Assembly: GCA_033816765.1 (NCBI GenBank)
Contig: CM066294.1
Coordinates: forward strand, 2,914,001 to 2,978,000
Direction: 5' to 3'
Source of the DNA: Nothopassalora personata
Lineage: Eukaryota > Ascomycota > Dothideomycetes > Mycosphaerellales > Mycosphaerellaceae
Length of the DNA: 64,000 nucleotides
Shown piece after piece: positions 200-49,130 of this stretch. Made by a program: the position numbers and the translations under genes. Numbering within the stretch: position 1 is the stretch's first letter; the number at the start of each line of letters is the position of its first letter. A model generated the notes under the pieces. That model did no database searches. It was not told the origin of the DNA and saw only the letters and a program-made list of their open reading frames with translations.

Positions 200-1807
200 T
201 CATGGCGACATGCCATTATAAGCCGGCGACAAACCATTACTATACCGACTACCACCACGGCTCTTCCTCTGGCTCTTCCGCTGTCGTACGCCAGAAGGCT
301 GCTTGACGTACGTCTCGGTCTCCGGATCGTAATGCAGCAGTTCCAGTTCCAGCTGCCACAATGGCGCTTCCGGCAGAGTCTTGACGAAACCTCCCAGAGG
401 CCTGTCGCGAGCTTTCCAGTACACGTTGGGTCGTTTGGCGCCTTCTTCATTTTCGACGATCAGCTTCCAGTCGCGGAGCGCTTTGCAGTCGTATGCGCCC
501 CTGTCATCGAGACCTGGGCCGCGGAGCTTCAAACGTGACCGGACAGATGGGTGTATATATTCATGGGTGTCGAGTAACGGATCCTCGGTCGGCTTGCCGT
601 TGGCGGGATCTGTGTAGCAGTATCGGCCAGGTGTGCGGACTTTCTGTCCTCCCAAGGCGTAGAATCCTTCCATGCCGCTGAAGATCTTACCGAAGGACCA
701 TGGTCTGGGCTTCTGGTCTGTCCTGTCATAATAGTCTTCCACTTTGTCCCACTCGTCATGGACGTAGTCGAGGTCGAAGTCTAGGAATGGTTGGCATTGC
801 GCCATCATCCATGCGAGGCTGATAGTGGCTATTTGCTGGTCGTCGTAGCCACCGCCAACGTTGCTGTGGGCTCCTGGAAACCAGACTTGACGGAGTGTCG
901 TGTTGTTGCCTTCTAGCTTCTCCCACAATGTTGGAGGAAATGCAAAGCGGCGTTCGTCCAACGCCAAGGCTTGAAAGGCGTACTCGATCGCATTCGACAG
1001 CGATGTATCGTAGAACGACAACTCCTTCATTTGCCGAGACTGCAAGCCAAGCCTCGTAAGCCAGCCGAGTTTAGGAGTTCCAAGGGAGCCGACAGTATCC
1101 CAGCATCCGACCACTTTCACTGGAACATTGAGTCTCGTGAATCCCCTTCGCTGCAGCTCACGCTTGTACTCCGGGTCCATAGCGCTAGGTTTATCAGGGA
1201 ACGGGATATCCGGGTTTTTCGGTATATATTTATCATTATGCTTATGCTTGACATCGCGATAAATCTCGGCCAGGTACGGTTCGCCGTCTCCAGTCAAAAT
1301 CCCAATTTCGCCGATGAGTGCAGCTATACTCCGCGCACTGAAGGCGCCACGACTGAAGCCGAAGATGAAGATTTCATCGCCGGGAACGTAATTGGTTGCG
1401 ATGAAAAGGTAGCCTTCTCGAACGATTTCTTCGAGACCTTGGCCGGAGATGCCGAGGAGTTTGTTACCTATGCCACCACCGCCTCCGACTCCCCAGTGGT
1501 AGTAGACGATTTGAGGGGTGCCATCTGAGCTGAGTGGTTTTATGGCACGTGCGATGCGCGTAACATTACTTGGAATGTCGAGAGAGGCCTTAAGGCTGCC
1601 ACTGTCAGAATTTAGCCAAGATCCTGTCGGGCGTTAGTACAGATTCCACGAAGACAGTGGAAGTGGACACGCACCATCTTCGCACAGAATAATTCTCTTC
1701 CCAGGGCGACCGCGCTGTGGTTCGCGAATAGAGAGAGCTCTGCTCTGGGACCGAACCCGACTGCGGCTTCTCGCTCTGCTCGGCTCAGCGGTGGAAAGCC
1801 TCGACAT
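200..1807 (-). CDS. DUF2235 alpha/beta-hydrolase (Tle1-like phospholipase fold)
   Basis: Two exons, complement(1675..1807) and complement(200..1623), with a 51-nt GTGCGT...CAG intron containing a CTAAC branch site; 518 aa. Exon 1 gives a basic Ser/Arg-rich leader and then KRIILCEDGSW, the usual opening strand of DUF2235. The nucleophile elbow GFSRGAF has Ser135. Asp220 in CWDTVG and His297 in PGAHSNVGGGY fit the rest of a Ser-Asp-His triad as in Tle1 lipases. The conserved HSDVGGGY motif reads HSNVGGGY here (Asn299). A Gly-rich stretch (residues 89-97) precedes the catalytic core. No signal peptide or membrane segment is visible. Such proteins are common in filamentous fungi and mostly uncharacterised; lipase or esterase activity is family inference. 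The start at 1807 is the first ATG in frame with the DUF2235 opening strand. Confidence 0.88.
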
Positions 1808-12145: not shown

Positions 12146-13295
<1,150 letters not shown>

Positions 13296-33044: not shown

Positions 33045-36000
33045 ATGGCTCGCCGTACAGTCACGGTCAATGGCGCACACACCAACGGCCATGCGCCGCC
33101 GTCGTCCACGCTGGCAGCACAAATAGTGCAGAATCATGGCGGGACAGCCACGTTCGCGGACGTGCTACAGGAGATGCTCAGTGATCAGGCCGCTGCTCAA
33201 GAGAATGACGCTCACGTGAACGTCCAACTCGTCAGCGTACTCCTCCAGGCTGGTCTTTTGCCACTCACCACAGACAACCCCTTCGCGAACTCGGACGACC
33301 TCTTGCAGCAGGCCCGGGACAGCATCACTGTGATTGAGAGGACATTGAAGCGGCAACCAGAAGTCGCGGTAACTCAGTTAACTCCAGAGGGTCCACAGTT
33401 GTTCCTAAGTCTGCTGGCTACGCTCGCTTCCCTGTGCGGACGACCAAAGTGTCAAAACCTCGGCGTGCACCAACTGTTGAGCTCAATATGTACTGGACTC
33501 GACAAGTCTCTTCATTTCTGGAAGTCGGCTCATGTGTTACGCGAGATCGTACAAGAAAGCGTTGATGGTACGTTGAATGCTATGCGGTAAGTGATCCCTG
33601 CTTATCCTTCCATACAGATGCTCTCCTTGCCCTCGAGGCATTGACAGCCACAAACACAAAGGTCAGCTTGACATTGCCTCCAGCCAGGAGTGTTGGTAAG
33701 CTTTGGTCACATGGAGAGAACAGCATCACTGCGCCTCCGGGTACCACCGCCACGGTTCATGATGCTTCCCGAGCTTTCATGGTGGCAATGGAGCTTTCAC
33801 AGGTCAATGGACTTGTCAAACCTTGGTGTCGGGAGACGAATTTGAGGCTCCAACAAGCAGCGTACAAGTTCAGAGCACAGCTGCAGAAGGCAGAGCTTTG
33901 GAAGCAGACCCTGCAACATCTCCATGAACTCGGCGACAACGATGCCGACGAGATCCTATCTCCTCTGCTTCAAGAGACTGCGAAGGCACAGGATGTTGTC
34001 ATGAGCAATGGAGACGACCTTTTCACAGCCTTTGAGCAACAATGTACGTTGCACCCGGGCACGATAAAACGCAGAAAGCCACGAAAGCGCCGAAGGCTAT
34101 CCACTGAAGACCTCAATCCGCACGCCGCAGACCCTGCTCAGCGCATGGCTTGGCTCGCTGGAGGTCCCGAAGCAGCGAAGGCGATATACCTGACGATGTC
34201 TGACCAAGAGAAAGGCACCGCTTGGCAATCTCTAGCGGATCACGCACAGCATGACTTGGATACTACCCTCGCAACCATCTCGAAGCTCATCGCTTTGCCT
34301 GAACTTCATGACACAAAGCGACAGCGAGTGTTGTCAATGTACGCTGTGGCGGCGTGCGCACAGCATCTCAACAGCAAGGAGCAAGTTGCGCTTGGCTCAT
34401 CTGAATTCGGAATGTACTGTCTCCAAAGTCTGCACAGCTCAAGCCGTGAATTACGACTTGCAGCTAGTCGCGCACTGCCTTGCTTCCTCAGGCATGATAT
34501 CCGGGAGGACGTGCGAGACGCCAACCGGAAGCTTGCACTCGAATACCTTAGGACTTTGTCCGATCGAGACGTGGCAAGCGAGCAGGAAACACTCATAATC
34601 GCCTGGGGTCAAGTGGCGATCGCGTGTGGCGACACTGAGCTCAATCTTGTGCTGCTCCGCTTGGTGGACTACCTTGGCCACTCTAACAGCCTCATATGCG
34701 GACTCGCAGCTGCGGAGGTCGAAGCCATAGCGACTGCTAAAGCAACGACGGTCGTAGAGATGTTTCAGCCATTTTGGCGGTCCATCGCCGTGTCGGCAGT
34801 GCAGGATCTACCGACCAGACCGAACAAGACGCAGCAGTTGTGCGACCTTCTCTATATGGATCTCGATTCTTTCCTGAACATGACACAACGCGACACGTTG
34901 CCGACTCTAGTGCTCACCAAGAAGCAAGACATCATACAGAGAATCGCCGATGCAGCTGGGAGGGAGTCGGTACGGGATGTGTGCCTGCAACCGATAACAA
35001 ATCTAGCAGCCATATTGTCGCTCTTGCTCACACAGTCTTCCGGCGATGTCGAGGAGTCAGTCTTCGCGTCTCTGACAGCTGTCGATCCTGCCTTTGGGGA
35101 TGTTGACCTTGCAAGCTTGATCAAACTCGAGCCAGTGCAGATTGCTTGCGAGCTGTTGAAGCTCTGCGCGGATGAGAGTGATGATAGGAAGTCCAGAGCA
35201 TATCAAGCTTTCCATAGTTTCGCGAACATAGAGCAAGTGGCGCCCGGTCAGCGCAAGGCTCATGCGAAAGCCAGCAAAGCTGTACTAGCCCACTTCGACA
35301 AACACATTCTGGGCATTCTGACGAACTTCTCAGCCATACTGGAAACCGGTCCAGAATTCGTCGCGGAGAAGATTCGCTGCCTCAGAGGAATCGAAGAAAT
35401 CTTCACCCTCACGAAGGGTGACGTCTCGATTGCTCTGCCGCAAATTCGCGCGTGCCTACATGTGGGATTGAACCAACTGGCTCTACAGGAAGTGGCATTC
35501 GGCGTCTGGCTATCGCTTGTCGATTGCCTCTTGCAGAGCGAAGACGTGGCAGAGATCGTTGATGAAACCTTCGTCCTTATTGTGCGACATTGGCCAACAA
35601 TATCCGACAAGATGCGGAACAAGGTTCACAATTCAGTCAGCTCTTTGGTCAAGGCCCACAACATAACACTCACCGAGAACATAATGACTCTTCCATCACT
35701 ACACAGTTGCGCACCACTGCTGACCAAATTCGCCTCCGAATTCCAGCGCCTCAAAGATCAAGAAAGTGTGGAGAGCCATTGCAAAGCATTTACTCGGCGT
35801 CTTCGTGCGGAAAGCGGCAAAGTCGTTCTGCAAGCATTGGTCGAGCTGGTGCCTTACCTCGATGAGCATCAGGGCTTCATGCACGAGACGGCTGCAAGCG
35901 AGCACCCTTCGATAGTGCTTCCGGAGCTGCTGCGTGCGCTACTTGATGTGACGGTGAAGTACTCGACCGTTGATGAGCAAGCCGCTGAGCTCTGTGGCAA

Positions 36001-39000
36001 AGCGCTCGGTATCATAGGGTGCGTCGATCCGAATCGTGTCGAAGCGGCGCGCAAGAAGAGGCAAGTCCTGGTGCTGTCCAATTTTGATACGGCAAGCGAG
36101 GTCATCAACTGGATCTTGGCCCTGTTCGAGGACGTCTTGGTAAAGGCCTTCAAGTCTGTGACAAACGCGAAAGCCCAAGGTATTCTGGCATACACTATGC
36201 AAGAGCTACTATCTTTCTGCAACTTTGGCGAGCTGTCTCAACTGCGACCACGCGCCTCTCAGGCACCAGAAGGCTATCAGCGATGGTACGACTTGCCAGA
36301 GCACGTCCGTACAACACTGACACCCTTCCTCAGCTCGCGATACTTTGTAGTACCAAACAAAGATATTGGTCCACCCAACAGAGCTTACCCTAACTTCTCT
36401 GTGGACGACAGTCATGAGAAGTGGTTGAGGTCACTAACTTTCGATCTGATGCACAAAGCGAAGGGAGACAATGCGAAGACTGCCTTCCCGCTCGTGGCAC
36501 GTCTCATTCGTTTCCATGATCTAGGGATCGCAAGATTTGTGTTGCCGTACGCAATACTCAACGTCGTGATCGGTGGCACTGTTGCAGAGGTTCAAGGTCT
36601 GACCGACGAATTCCTAGCGGTGCTGCGCTGCCGCTCAGCCCTACCACAGCAACAGGAATGTATAAGACTATGCAGTGAGAGTGTATTCGGCGCGTTGGAT
36701 TACCTTGCGGTTTGGTTACGAGGCAAGAAACAGCAGCTCGCCGCAACTCGGACCGAAGCATACAAGACTGGACATTCACCAACCGAGTTCGATGAGGCAC
36801 GAGACATGGCTCAAATCGACACTGTTGAAACTTTCCTGGCATCCATACCAGCAGATGTCATCGCAGAACAGGCTGTTGACTGCCGGTCCTATGCTCGAGC
36901 ACTATTCCACTGGGAGCAGCACATCCGAAAGAAGAGATCGCTTATCCCTTCGCCTCGTATGACAGAGCAGCACGAAATGCTATACGACAAGCTTCAAGAT
37001 ATTTACTCACAGATCGACGAACCTGATGGCCTGGAGGGCCTTGCTGTCAGGCTGCCAATCATCAGTGAGGAGCAACAAGCTTTCAACCACGCAAAGTCGG
37101 GGCGGTGGACAGCAGCACAAGCCTGGTACGAGCTTCAGCTGGCCGAGCAACCCACGAACACAGATATACAGCATAGTTTTCTGCGATGTCTACAGGAAAC
37201 TGGTCAATACGCCTCATTGCTCAACTATGCAAAGGGGTTTCGCACTGAAGGCAATAGTGCTCAAGCACACCTAGCTCTGATGGCAGAAGCAAGCTGGATG
37301 GTCGAAGATGTTGAAAAACTCAGCATATGCGTCAAGCTCCAGTCCGAGAACAGCCACCACGACTTCAATATAGGCATCGCGGAAGTCTTGCTACGCATAG
37401 GAGGGCTTTCACCAGAGGCGTTCGAGGATAAAGTAAGCCAGATTCGCAAGTCGATCACAGAGAGCCTCTCCATGGCAAGCACGGACTCACTCCAGCTATG
37501 CCACTCCGAGCTCGTGAAACTACATGTCCTACACGAGATCGAAGCAATGGCAAACGCGGATCCCAGCGCAAGCCTCGATCTGTTGAAGTGCCTCGACAAG
37601 CGTTTGACAGAGGTAGGCTCTTACGTCCAAGACAAGCAGTACATTCTTGGTGTGAGGCGGGCCATCATGTATCTGCGATCTTCACAATTCCCAAACTCTC
37701 ACCTAGGAACTCTATGGCTTACCACTGCGCGCTTGGCACGACAAGCCAAGAACACCAGCAGTTCCTACAAAGCTACGCTCAAGGCGTTCGAATGTGGTCT
37801 GCGTGAAGCCAAATTAGAAGAAGCGAGACTCCTATGGCATGAGGGCCATCAAAGACAGGCACTTCAGCTGCTAGAGAACGCAATCGAATCGGGCATGGTC
37901 ACGGACGACAACATTGAGGCGGACATAATGATGACCGATGTCAGCTTGAGCACGAAGGGATCCGCAAGCGAGATTAATGGTTACAAGCAGGATCGCCTTA
38001 ATGCAAAGGCTGTGCTGCTTTTGGCAAAATGGCTGGACGCCTCCGGACAAAGTCAGACTCAAGATATGTCTGATCGTTATCAGCTTGCGGCAAGACGATG
38101 CCAGCGTTGGGAGAAGGGCCATTACTATCTCGGGAAGCACTATGGCAAGTTGCTGAATGCCCAGAAACAACGACCAAAGGACAAGCAATCGCAGGCCTTC
38201 GCTACTGGAGAGCTCGTAAAGTTGGTCATCGACAACACTCTACGATCGATACCTTTTGGCAACAAATACTGGCATGAGACCATACCTCGGGTGCTGACCC
38301 TGTGGATGGAGCTTGGCTCTCTCTGCATCAAGAAAGAGCCCAAAGAGAGCAATGATATCTTCGACAAGCGAGTCAAAACACTTCAAGCCACCAACAAGCA
38401 GCTACAGAAATACTTCGAGAGAGTACCACCTTACGTATTCTACCACGCTCTGCCGCAGCTCATCTCTCGAATCACTCACCCGCATCCGGAAGTGTGGAAA
38501 CAGCTGTGCAACATCTTGACCAGGATTGCTGCATCTCATCCAAGCCAAGCTCTGTGGAGTATGCTTGGGGTAGTAAGGGCAGCTGACCGCACCAGAATCG
38601 AGCGCGGCACAGAGGTGCTGAACAGACTCCGAGATCCCAAGACGAAGCCGAAGAACTCTGACATTTCTGGTGATCTGAAGACGCTCATCCACCAGGGCCA
38701 ACGTTTGTGCGATGGCTTGTTGCAGGCCAGTGAAGCGCCAGTCGAGCCTCGAGCCGTCAAGGTCAAGCTTGGCAAAGATCTGGGCTTCAACCATAAGCTC
38801 GCTCCAAGCCAGCTAGTGGTCCCTGTCGAGGCCACGTTGACTGCATCATCACCAGCTGCCGCGAACAGCGATACAATTCGTCGCCACAGAGCCTTCGCAC
38901 ACGACAAAGTCACCATACAGGCTTTCACTGACGATGTGTTGGTTCTGAACTCGCTGCAGCGACCTCGCAAGATCACTGCACGTGGCTCCGATGGCAAGCT

Positions 39001-39997
39001 TTACGGTCTAATGTGCAAGCCCAAGGACGATCTGCGCAAGGATCAACGTCTGATGGAGTTCAACGGCATCATCAATCGAGCCCTGAAGCGGAACACTGAG
39101 AGTAGCAAGCGACGACTCTACATCAAGACTTATGCAGTCACGCCTCTCAGCGAAGAGTCCGGTACCATCGAATGGGTCGAGGGCATCAAGCCGATAAGAG
39201 ACATCTTGCTTAGCCTCTACGGGTCCAAGGGAATCCGGCCGAACTACAATGAGATCAAGAAAGATCTCGACATGGCTTCGTCCGCACCCGAACATGCTCA
39301 CATCTTCGCTGAGAAAGTCCTCAACCAGTTCCCGCCGTCACTACACGAGTGGTTCACGGAGACGTACCCCGAACCCGATACATGGATGGCAGCGCGCGTG
39401 CGTTACGCGCGGTCGGCGGCAGTCATGTCGATGGCAGGGCACATCCTCGGACTTGGAGATCGGCATGGCGAGAACATCTTGCTTGAGGAAGGGACAGGCG
39501 GAGTCTTCCACGTGGACTTCAACTGCTTGTTCGACAAAGGCCTTACGTTCGAGAAGCCGGAGCTGGTACCATTCAGGTTGACGCCGAACATGGTCGATGC
39601 GATGGGTCCGTACGGCTACGAAGGTCCATTCAGAAAATCATGCGAACTAACGCTAAGTCTGCTGCGCCAAGAACGCGACACGCTGATGACGGTGCTGGAG
39701 ACGTTTCTGTACGATCCAACCACCGACTTCGTGGGCAAGAAGAAGCGATCTACTGCAGGGGTTCCAGAGACACCGGCTGAAATCCTTGAAAGCGTGTCGA
39801 CCAAGCTGAAGGGTCTGCTACGTGGAGAGTCGATCGTGCTCAGTACTGAAGGTTACGTTGATGCTCTGATCCAGGAAGCCGTGAGCCACTTCAATCTGGC
39901 GAGCATGTACATTGGTAAGTTTTGTCTGTGGTTTGTTGCTGTTCTCGAAGAATGTTTGCTAACACTTTTGATTCCCAGGCTGGTGTTCGTTCCTGTG
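33045..39997 (+). CDS. MEC1: ATR/Mec1/UvsB checkpoint kinase (PIKK)
   Basis: Exons 33045..33567, 33618..39914 and 39978..39997; 2279 aa. Layout: long HEAT-repeat solenoid (to about residue 1400), FAT domain, PI3K-like kinase (about 1970-2230), FATC. The kinase is clearly ATR-type: GLGDRHGENILL with catalytic Asp2122, and HVDFNCLF (Asp2141; DFN in place of DFG), as in ATR, Mec1 and Rad3, followed by FRLTPNMVDAMGPYGYEGPFR. The final 20-nt exon completes the FATC as MYIGWCSFL, the expected ending. The kinase senses RPA-coated single-stranded DNA through its Ddc2/ATRIP/UvsD partner and starts the S-phase and G2 checkpoint. If the last intron were kept, about 24 unrelated residues would replace the FATC end. 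Confidence 0.95.
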
Positions 39998-40847
39998 ATG
40001 GGGGCTTGACGTTGAGTGCTATATCGAGATGTACGAGTGCTGGTTAGGAAAAGCGCGGCAGAGAATACGAAGCAGGGACGCGGTCGTCGTCACTAGCTCT
40101 CGGACGTTCCTATGTACAGTACCGACAACGAAGCCTCGAGCGGATCTAAATGCCTATTCGAGGCACGGCCGTTGCTAGCGTGGCTCTCCCGCGAGCATTT
40201 CTCTTTTTTTTTTCTTTTGTTTTTCTGTTGCGACGAAATGTGAAATGTCAAACAGGTGGGGGGAACATGTGAGGAATATCAATATTATAGCCGGCTGTGT
40301 GTCGAGTATGAAGACTGCTTGAGTGAAGCACTGCAAAGCATGAGACCTCAGCGACCCCTGCGAAACGGCCGGTTGACGCCACTTATGCAGGTCCAGATGG
40401 CAGATTGGGTCCCCCCCCCCGGTACATACGCGATTCGTCCCCCGCAGAACATGTCTGACCCCCAACACACCAAAGCTGTTGTTAACATTCTTCACGCCCT
40501 CTCCCGCCGCCATTCATTCTTCTACAGTACCACATTTCTCCTTGCCCCGTGTATACTACCAATTGCACTCGTTACTTACCATCGCGAGCACAACTGCGGA
40601 GAATTCTTTTTCAGCATTGCGTGCGAACGGCGTCCAGACATTGTTTCGCACCGAATCCACCTCCAAGTTTCATCATCGCCAATCGACCCAGCGATTGCAT
40701 CACCCGAAGAACCCAACTCGGCAACTCCCCGCGCGCCTCGAGGCGTCTGGACCGCTTTGATTGACGAGACGAAAGAGGCGTCCACGTTGAAACCACCTGG
40801 TTGCATTCACACTCGCTCACTTTTCCTGCTTCCTCAGTTCCGAAAGT
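39998..40847. other. Intergenic, no gene seen
   Basis: Between ATR kinase and MscS gene. Contains a T-rich tract (40202-40227) and a run of C (about 40411-40420). A plus-strand ORF at 40256-40909 overlaps the MscS start in another frame and has no motif; probably chance. Confidence 0.6.
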
Positions 40848-48269: not shown

Positions 48270-49130
48270 CTAATCATCGAAGATATGCTTTCCTCCACAT
48301 TGGTTCCCAAAGAAGGCTTTCGCCGTACCTGAAGTACGCACATTGTCGAATGTATGCTGATGATTGAGGATGGGACCACTGTAGCCATTGGCCACGAAAT
48401 CGCCCGCGAAGATCGAAGCACTATCCTCAGTAATCATATTGCCGAAGGAGTGACCGCTGGCCGCAGTGGAAAGCGCTGAGTCGAGATCCGAATCAACTGC
48501 TTGAGAAACTTCTTTGAGGGCAAGAACAGCTTCCTTATCTGGCGCAGAATCGGCTGTTGTGGCAAGCTCTTGCGCTTCTTGCAGTGCAAGCTGTTTTTGC
48601 TTCGGCTGGGCGCTCGGGAAGAGTTCAGTCAAAGCTTTGATACTGCTGTCCAGGTCGTCGATGAGGTCCGCCAGCTTGCCTTTGTGATGCAGAGCCCATT
48701 TTGCTTTCTGTTTCAGGGAAGTGGCTCTTTGCCGACTCAAGGCGAGCTGCCTCGTCTTGACCGTCAGACTCTCTACGGAGTCATAGCCCAGGGCATAGCC
48801 TGGCTCTGATACATTTGACTTGTAGCGGCTTGAAACCCTTTCGGCGGTAGAGAGATCATCGAGTATCTGGCCGAGGAGTTCCTCTACGGTCCGACGATCC
48901 TGTTCGCTTGCGAGCTTGACGTCCCGTGGGAGCTGAGAGGCATCGTCGACTAGCTGTACGCTTTGGCTCCAGCGGGAGAGCTTCAGGCTCAGGATGTTGA
49001 TCTTGAGGATGGCCTTTTGGTAGTCTTTGCCGAAGCTCTTGCCTGACTGGATGTAATTGAAGGCACCCATGCAGCTATCGAAGGTAGCTACAACACCCGC
49101 CACTCCGATTGCCAAACTTGCTGGATCCAT
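48270..49130 (-). CDS. HET-s/HET-S-like protein: HeLo domain plus HET-s-type amyloid (prion) region
   Basis: Single exon, 286 aa; Podospora anserina HET-s has 289. The N-terminal HeLo domain (about 1-220) is collinear with HET-s: YIQSGKSFGKDYQK against YVQLGRPFGRDYER, LSRWSQSVQL against LSRWGEAVKI, and RQRATSLKQKAKWAL against RRQKQTSLAKKTAWAL. The C-terminal region holds two pseudo-repeats: about 227-247 (HSFGNMITEDSASIFAGDF...) and about 259-279 (HTFDNVRTSGTAKAFFGNQ...). It ends GNQCGGKHIFDD, against GNEYGGKGFWDN in HET-s. In Podospora these repeats form the beta-solenoid prion, and HET-S uses the HeLo domain to insert into membranes and kill incompatible cells. The N-terminal segment MDPASLAIGVAGVVATF is hydrophobic enough to be the HET-S-like membrane helix. 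Whether this copy is toxic, prion-forming or regulatory is not readable. Confidence 0.9.
   Translation of the reverse strand: MDPASLAIGVAGVVATFDSCMGAFNYIQSGKSFGKDYQKAILKINILSLKLSRWSQSVQLVDDASQLPRDVKLASEQDRRTVEELLGQILDDLSTAERVSSRYKSNVSEPGYALGYDSVESLTVKTRQLALSRQRATSLKQKAKWALHHKGKLADLIDDLDSSIKALTELFPSAQPKQKQLALQEAQELATTADSAPDKEAVLALKEVSQAVDSDLDSALSTAASGHSFGNMITEDSASIFAGDFVANGYSGPILNHQHTFDNVRTSGTAKAFFGNQCGGKHIFDD

Follow-up and report, generated by a model that had tools for sequence, protein, structure and literature searches.

The predicted effector gene and its surroundings

The window, the whole stretch of 64,000 nucleotides of the Nothopassalora personata genome analysed here, carries on its minus strand an open reading frame (48270-49130) that starts with ATG and continues uninterrupted over 286 codons to a stop codon lying inside these coordinates. 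No intron is needed to read it. A preliminary description of this DNA had delimited the frame exactly, strand and stop codon included, and had assigned its product a HET-s-like length, which agrees with the 286 residues found here as compared to 289 in HET-s (by HET-s residue numbering). Its broader claim of a full-length HET-s/HET-S homologue holds as regards architecture and is secure for the HeLo half. The features of the gene, with residue numbers of the encoded protein, are the following:

48270..49130, minus strand: HeLo effector with double HET-s-related amyloid motif (ORF of 286 aa plus stop)
49059..49115, minus strand: candidate membrane segment at the hydrophobic N-terminus (residues 6-24; Kyte-Doolittle mean 1.68)
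48561..49115, minus strand: HeLo domain, residues 6-190 (PF14479, E 1e-40; Foldseek best matches 2wvq, 2wvo, 2wvn)
48396..48458, minus strand: first putative amyloid repeat (r1) at residues 225-245, with conserved Gly 243 (internal repeat alignment)
48363..48395, minus strand: linker of 11 residues between r1 and r2, residues 246-256 (repeat alignment)
48300..48362, minus strand: second putative amyloid repeat (r2) at residues 257-277, with conserved Gly 275 (internal repeat alignment)
48273..48299, minus strand: Gly-Gly-Lys/aromatic C-terminal tail, residues 278-286 (aligns with the HET-s C-terminal loop)

The long frames closest to the effector gene are a 291-codon frame without Pfam match and a tyrosinase gene. 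The window also codes for a T6SS Tle1-like phospholipase catalytic domain (203-1633, minus strand; E 1e-77) and, in a single frame of 2147 codons, for an ATR/Mec1-type kinase (33566-40006, plus strand). A perfect GATT array of 35.8 copies is found at positions 12848-12990; its minus-strand reading gives a long SINQ repeat run inside an open frame.

The genome searched comprises 54.5 Mb in 40 contigs. When the full-length protein was used as query, the sole match at E up to 0.001 was its own gene. Two further, distant HeLo genes are present, one of which is broken. The gene on contig C5 (L038:4438-5880) is uninterrupted and codes for ~470 residues with a long and different tail; a motif scan of the L038 stretch found no double motif. 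The broken gene, which has an in-frame stop, is located on contig C3 (3366744-3367361; L034:4606-5514). At a distance of ~0.9 kb, the opposite strand carries an NPHP3_N match that is weak and likewise broken (3368285-3368623; 23.5 bits, just under the cut-off). The two fragments may be what is left of an effector/receptor pair.

The HeLo domain and the C-terminal repeats

Residues 6-190 match the HeLo profile PF14479 with 140.2 bits, far above the curated cut-off of 23.2 bits, and HET-s/HET-S are both the best sequence matches and the best fold matches of this half of the protein. All four PDB chains found by Foldseek at E of at most 0.001 with the full-length AlphaFold model are N-terminal domains of HET-s or HET-S, with TM scores of 0.51-0.54 when normalized to query length. 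This model, built from six sequences, is weak (pLDDT 52) and supports the HeLo fold only. The HeLo core named in the preliminary description is confirmed by these matches as well as by the profile search that had been suggested for it (E 1e-40).

The hydrophobic stretch at residues 6-24 is the most hydrophobic 19-mer of the protein. Its mean lies between those of HET-s (1.36) and HET-S (1.81) and is closer to the latter. The model places a helix at residues 3-29, with a pLDDT <50 for nearly all of it. The N-terminal region of HET-S is a hidden membrane helix; substitution H33P by itself converts HET-S to a harmless form, while toxicity of HET-s requires D23A and P33H together (PMC3531502). The positions that decide the allele type, 23 (Ala or Asp) and 33 (His or Pro) in HET-s/HET-S, align with Gly22 and Ser32 of the protein described here which, as noticed earlier, correspond to neither Podospora allele. 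Since neither HET-s residue (Asp23, Pro33) is present, a protein of the active, HET-S-like kind is to be expected from the sequence. Gly22/Ser32 was also considered as a new allele type. This was set aside as small residues look ordinary at the second position, which is Ser in four and Ala in one of five aligned homologues.

Repeats r1 and r2 align without gaps at an offset of 32 residues, leaving a loop of 11 residues between them. The published HET-s-related amyloid motif (HRAM) has Gly at position 19 and conserved positions 5, 8, 10, 16 and 18 (PMC4518210). Both repeats fit this pattern, being hydrophobic at positions 5, 8, 16 and 18 with Thr at 10 and Gly at 19 (F5, M8, T10, I16, A18 and G19 in r1; F5, V8, T10, A16, F18 and G19 in r2). 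Motif position 3 is His in both, and position 15 is Lys in r2 and Ser in r1. No complementary charges between the repeats were found at the HET-s salt-bridge positions used (6, 11, 13) or at the other positions examined (4, 7, 12), either here or in a Dothistroma relative (see below) that carries Asp at position 12 of both repeats. This differs from HET-s, where complementary charges occupy the salt-bridge positions.

The best ungapped internal repeat of residues 216-286 was reached by 3 out of 2000 shuffles, and by 0 out of 2000 when the tail of the Dothistroma relative was submitted to the same test. In pairwise comparisons with partial HET-s and HELLF sequences, the former without its first residues, the tail scored 59 against the HET-s prion domain (shuffle mean 21.7, equalled by 0 of 2000 shuffles) and 44 against HELLF (1 of 2000); the corresponding values for the Dothistroma tail were 58 (0 of 2000) and 34 (32 of 2000). 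The score of 59 was also reached by none of 1445 stretches of 62 residues, cut at intervals of 31 residues from frames at least 200 residues long in the window and in 18 stretches fetched from the genome. When the tail was searched by itself against the whole PDB, only two matches up to E 10 were obtained, HET-s (0.56) and HELLF (0.61), both insignificant. The HET-s prion-domain profile PF11558, whose use as a check had been proposed, has no match in the protein up to E 10 and none in the whole genome; control genomes gave none either. This failure weighs little because the profile matches just 38 of the 155 published HRAM proteins with double motif (PMC4518210). No strands were found in AlphaFold models of the tail, whether built for the tail from two sequences (pLDDT 37, too low to inform on the fold) or within the full-length protein (pLDDT <50). 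An intact two-repeat amyloid region, as had been claimed, is a fair prediction from the sequence: the double repeat and the similarity to the HET-s prion domain speak for it, the missing PF11558 match does not.

Total length, the HeLo domain, the C-terminal double repeat of 21 residues, the hydrophobic N-terminal segment and the G-N-x-x-G-G-K tail are common to this protein and to HET-S/HET-s of Podospora anserina (HRAM1). Some details of the repeat region differ. In HET-s the equivalent pairs G242/G278 and N226/N262 are 36 residues apart (PMC4055769) and the inter-repeat loop has 15 residues (PMC3321046); the loop is thus four residues shorter here (11 vs 15). The spacing of 32 residues reported earlier is right for this protein, but not as a distance kept from HET-s. 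Likewise, the G-N-x-x-G-G-K ending attributed to the repeats follows the second repeat but not the first one. After GGK the protein ends with Ile-Phe-Asp-Asp, as compared to Phe-Trp-Asp-Asn in HET-s. The replacement of Trp287 by Phe had been recognized, but the aromatic pair is changed at both places, with Ile replacing Phe286. The position of HET-s Tyr281 is Cys here and Tyr in the Dothistroma relative. In HET-s, F286A or W287A abolishes function in vivo, although fibrils of these mutants still seed; the effect of Y281A is a marked weakening (PMC4055769). Judging by the alignment, the nine-residue tail would correspond to this functionally critical C-terminal loop.

Relatives and search for a receptor

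DOTSEDRAFT_73817 of Dothistroma septosporum (283 residues), one of five proteins found, is a full-length relative with 66% identity. The HeLo domain shares 121 of 190 residues with it, the linker 22 of 32 and the amyloid region, which is therefore the better conserved half, 46 of 64. The relative has the same repeats, in the same register and with both Gly, and the same tail, identical in eight of the nine C-terminal residues. A wider profile search, scoring the 7996 candidates with most words in common, retrieved 27 proteins, all of them with a HeLo domain in their precomputed annotation. Inspection by eye of the matches listed found the double motif in none of the other homologues (23 of 24), only the Dothistroma protein carrying it; five of the 27 (P0024-P0028) were outside this inspection. 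The sigma-type Ses_B motif is matched by P0002-P0004, in the case of P0002 with a score under the curated cut-off. Few matches bear fungal names, so the database is taken as thin in fungi and the search is no census. Literature searches found no paper on DOTSEDRAFT_73817, only a genome paper on another fungus for a Dothistroma septosporum HET-s prion, and only Podospora work for HET-s/HeLo in Dothideomycetes.

This protein and DOTSEDRAFT_73817 have His at motif position 3 of each of their repeats, four in all. His at this position marks HRAM3, while HET-s carries Asn (PMC4518210). The repeats also share with HRAM3 the absence of Gln at positions 16 or 18; they differ from it by having Lys at position 15 in r2 only. 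Subfamily HRAM3 rather than HRAM1 is pointed to by this comparison, the assignment being made by key position 3 alone. Cochliobolus sativus and Curvularia lunata are Dothideomycetes, like Dothistroma. Both are listed for HRAM3 in Table 1 of PMC4518210.

The P. anserina protein HELLF provides a second comparison. Its matches to r1 and r2 outscore those of the HET-s repeats in three of four comparisons, HET-s r1 being represented by 18 of its 21 positions. HELLF has a HeLo-like domain, unlike the HeLo domain here, it carries in both repeats a Gln before the conserved Gly that is lacking here at position 18, and its gene adjoins the NLR gene fnt1 (PMC7889193). The second such Podospora protein is given an HRAM4 motif in PMC4518210 while HELLF is filed under HRAM5 in PMC7889193; the later designation is followed here. 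HELLF and HET-s adopt the same fold despite 17% repeat identity, and the same report describes no cross-seeding between them in vivo, although a designed hybrid of both does cross-seed (PMC7889193). Because two proteins that share a fold do not cross-seed, cross-seeding of the present protein with the Podospora HET-s prion is by analogy not expected.

An NLR gene is adjacent to 98 of 155 HRAM effector genes, leaving 57 for which none was found alongside (PMC4518210). An NWD2-like gene is known next to the gene for HET-S, whereas none was detected beside the gene studied here. NACHT, NPHP3_N and NB-ARC domains were not detected at E up to 0.01 in the window and its two 10-kb flanks, and no adjacent NLR with one motif copy, as in an NWD2/HET-S-type pair, was found. 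On this contig, the closest NLR-like frame free of interruptions is 1.33 Mb away. Genome searches for the three domains yielded 15 distinct candidate places. Uninterrupted frames with an NTPase domain well above the cut-off are found at four of them, on contigs C1, C12, C4 and C8. The NLR-like gene of contig C1 (L025:1315-5946) consists of two adjoining frames with a PigL_N-type N-terminus, an NPHP3_N NTPase and ankyrin repeats. On contig C9 (473182-473613; L029) an NPHP3_N match with 10 TAG and one TAA inside marks a heavily decayed NLR-like gene; its decay might be due to repeat-induced mutation.

A motif model made from four sequences, and a motif pattern, were scanned over the window and 18 stretches of 10 kb each, namely the two flanks, the region of another HeLo gene and the 15 places with NACHT, NPHP3_N or NB-ARC matches. 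The model gave 51.3 and 48.9 bits on the protein's own repeats, from which it was made, and no further motif copy in the 15 NLR-candidate regions, the HeLo region, the flanks or the window, the best other score being 9.2 bits. The pattern had seven matches, all in the window. Two are the repeats themselves; the other five, in frames of 30-151 residues, were dropped as chance matches. A genome search with the tail as query, in which a single candidate was scored, retrieved nothing but the tail itself up to E 10. All these searches covered intron-free frames and have limited power for a motif of 21 residues; a divergent copy, and with it a receptor, may have escaped them. The unusual point of the gene is its context: no partner NLR sensor was detected nearby.

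Proposed mechanism and alternatives

In the HET-S/NWD2 system the receptor motif folds as amyloid and templates the effector repeats; release of the membrane helix from the HeLo domain then leads to cell death (PMC4344463, PMC3531502, PMC4518210). The product of the gene described here is, with good confidence, a pore-forming, HET-S-type HeLo cell-death effector activated by amyloid templating. From HET-S and HELLF we infer amyloid folding, templating, membrane insertion and cell death as its mode of action. The effector would be soluble at rest, with tail residues 225-286 probably disordered. A folded copy of the same motif, presented by an activated NLR or by an aggregated copy of the effector itself, would act as trigger. 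The two repeats would then form two stacked rungs in a beta-solenoid amyloid and thereby unseat the hydrophobic N-terminal HeLo helix which, once free, could insert into the fungus's own membrane and kill the cell.

This explanation is preferred on account of the HeLo profile and fold combined with two in-register repeats that have the conserved HRAM positions, of a Gly-rich C-terminal loop with an aromatic residue resembling the HET-s F286/W287 region needed in vivo (PMC4055769), of an amyloid region conserved above the HeLo domain, and of an HET-S-like N-terminus. Counted against it are the lack of a PF11558 match and of strands in the tail models, the altered loop aromatics, the Cys at the Tyr281 position, the absence of complementary charges, and the failure to find an NLR domain nearby or a further motif copy.

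The last two points bear on the closest alternative, in which the genome has lost, or never had, the cognate NLR and the effector is a self-propagating prion switch or a leftover of an older pathway. Compatible with the templating mechanism, this reading is given a low probability. The negative domain searches, the distance to the nearest NLR-like frame, the low motif scores outside the repeats and the tail query that retrieved only itself all fit with it. However, more than a third of the published genes (57 of 155) were likewise found without adjacent NLR (PMC4518210), and a receptor with a single divergent motif could have escaped the searches. The leftover version would in addition leave unexplained why the tail is conserved better than the HeLo domain. 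A more specific proposal, that of an effector under constraint, with no cognate NLR in the genome and a tail seeded by itself or by a non-NLR protein as a stand-alone prion switch, is rather improbable.

We assign a similarly small probability to a working HeLo domain followed by an amyloid region that has diverged or is decaying and no longer forms a beta-solenoid. The same PF11558 result, altered aromatics, Cys residue, missing charges and strandless model would be expected from such a tail. Decay is at odds with the number of tail residues shared with the Dothistroma protein, proportionally more than in the HeLo domain, and with the maintenance of both Gly and of the register; moreover, HELLF folds like HET-s at a repeat identity of 17% (PMC7889193). 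A chance resemblance of the tail to the repeat pattern is very hard to sustain. The insignificant PDB-wide E-value and the three shuffles that matched the internal repeat score leave some room for it, but the tail sits directly behind a HeLo domain, its score against the HET-s prion domain was equalled by no shuffle and by none of the 1445 stretches, and the repeat is stronger in the Dothistroma relative. The templating effector is retained as best explanation.

HET-S-like cell-death proteins are common in fungi, and the protein is a well-supported, ordinary member of the known HeLo/HRAM effector family. It adds a natural HeLo-amyloid sequence, together with a relative, to a family whose cross-seeding rules are being deduced from natural variation; its altered aromatic tail and short loop are useful test variants. 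Unless the receptor is truly missing, such a gene is ordinary for a filamentous fungus; if it is missing, the question arises of how an effector of this kind is controlled.
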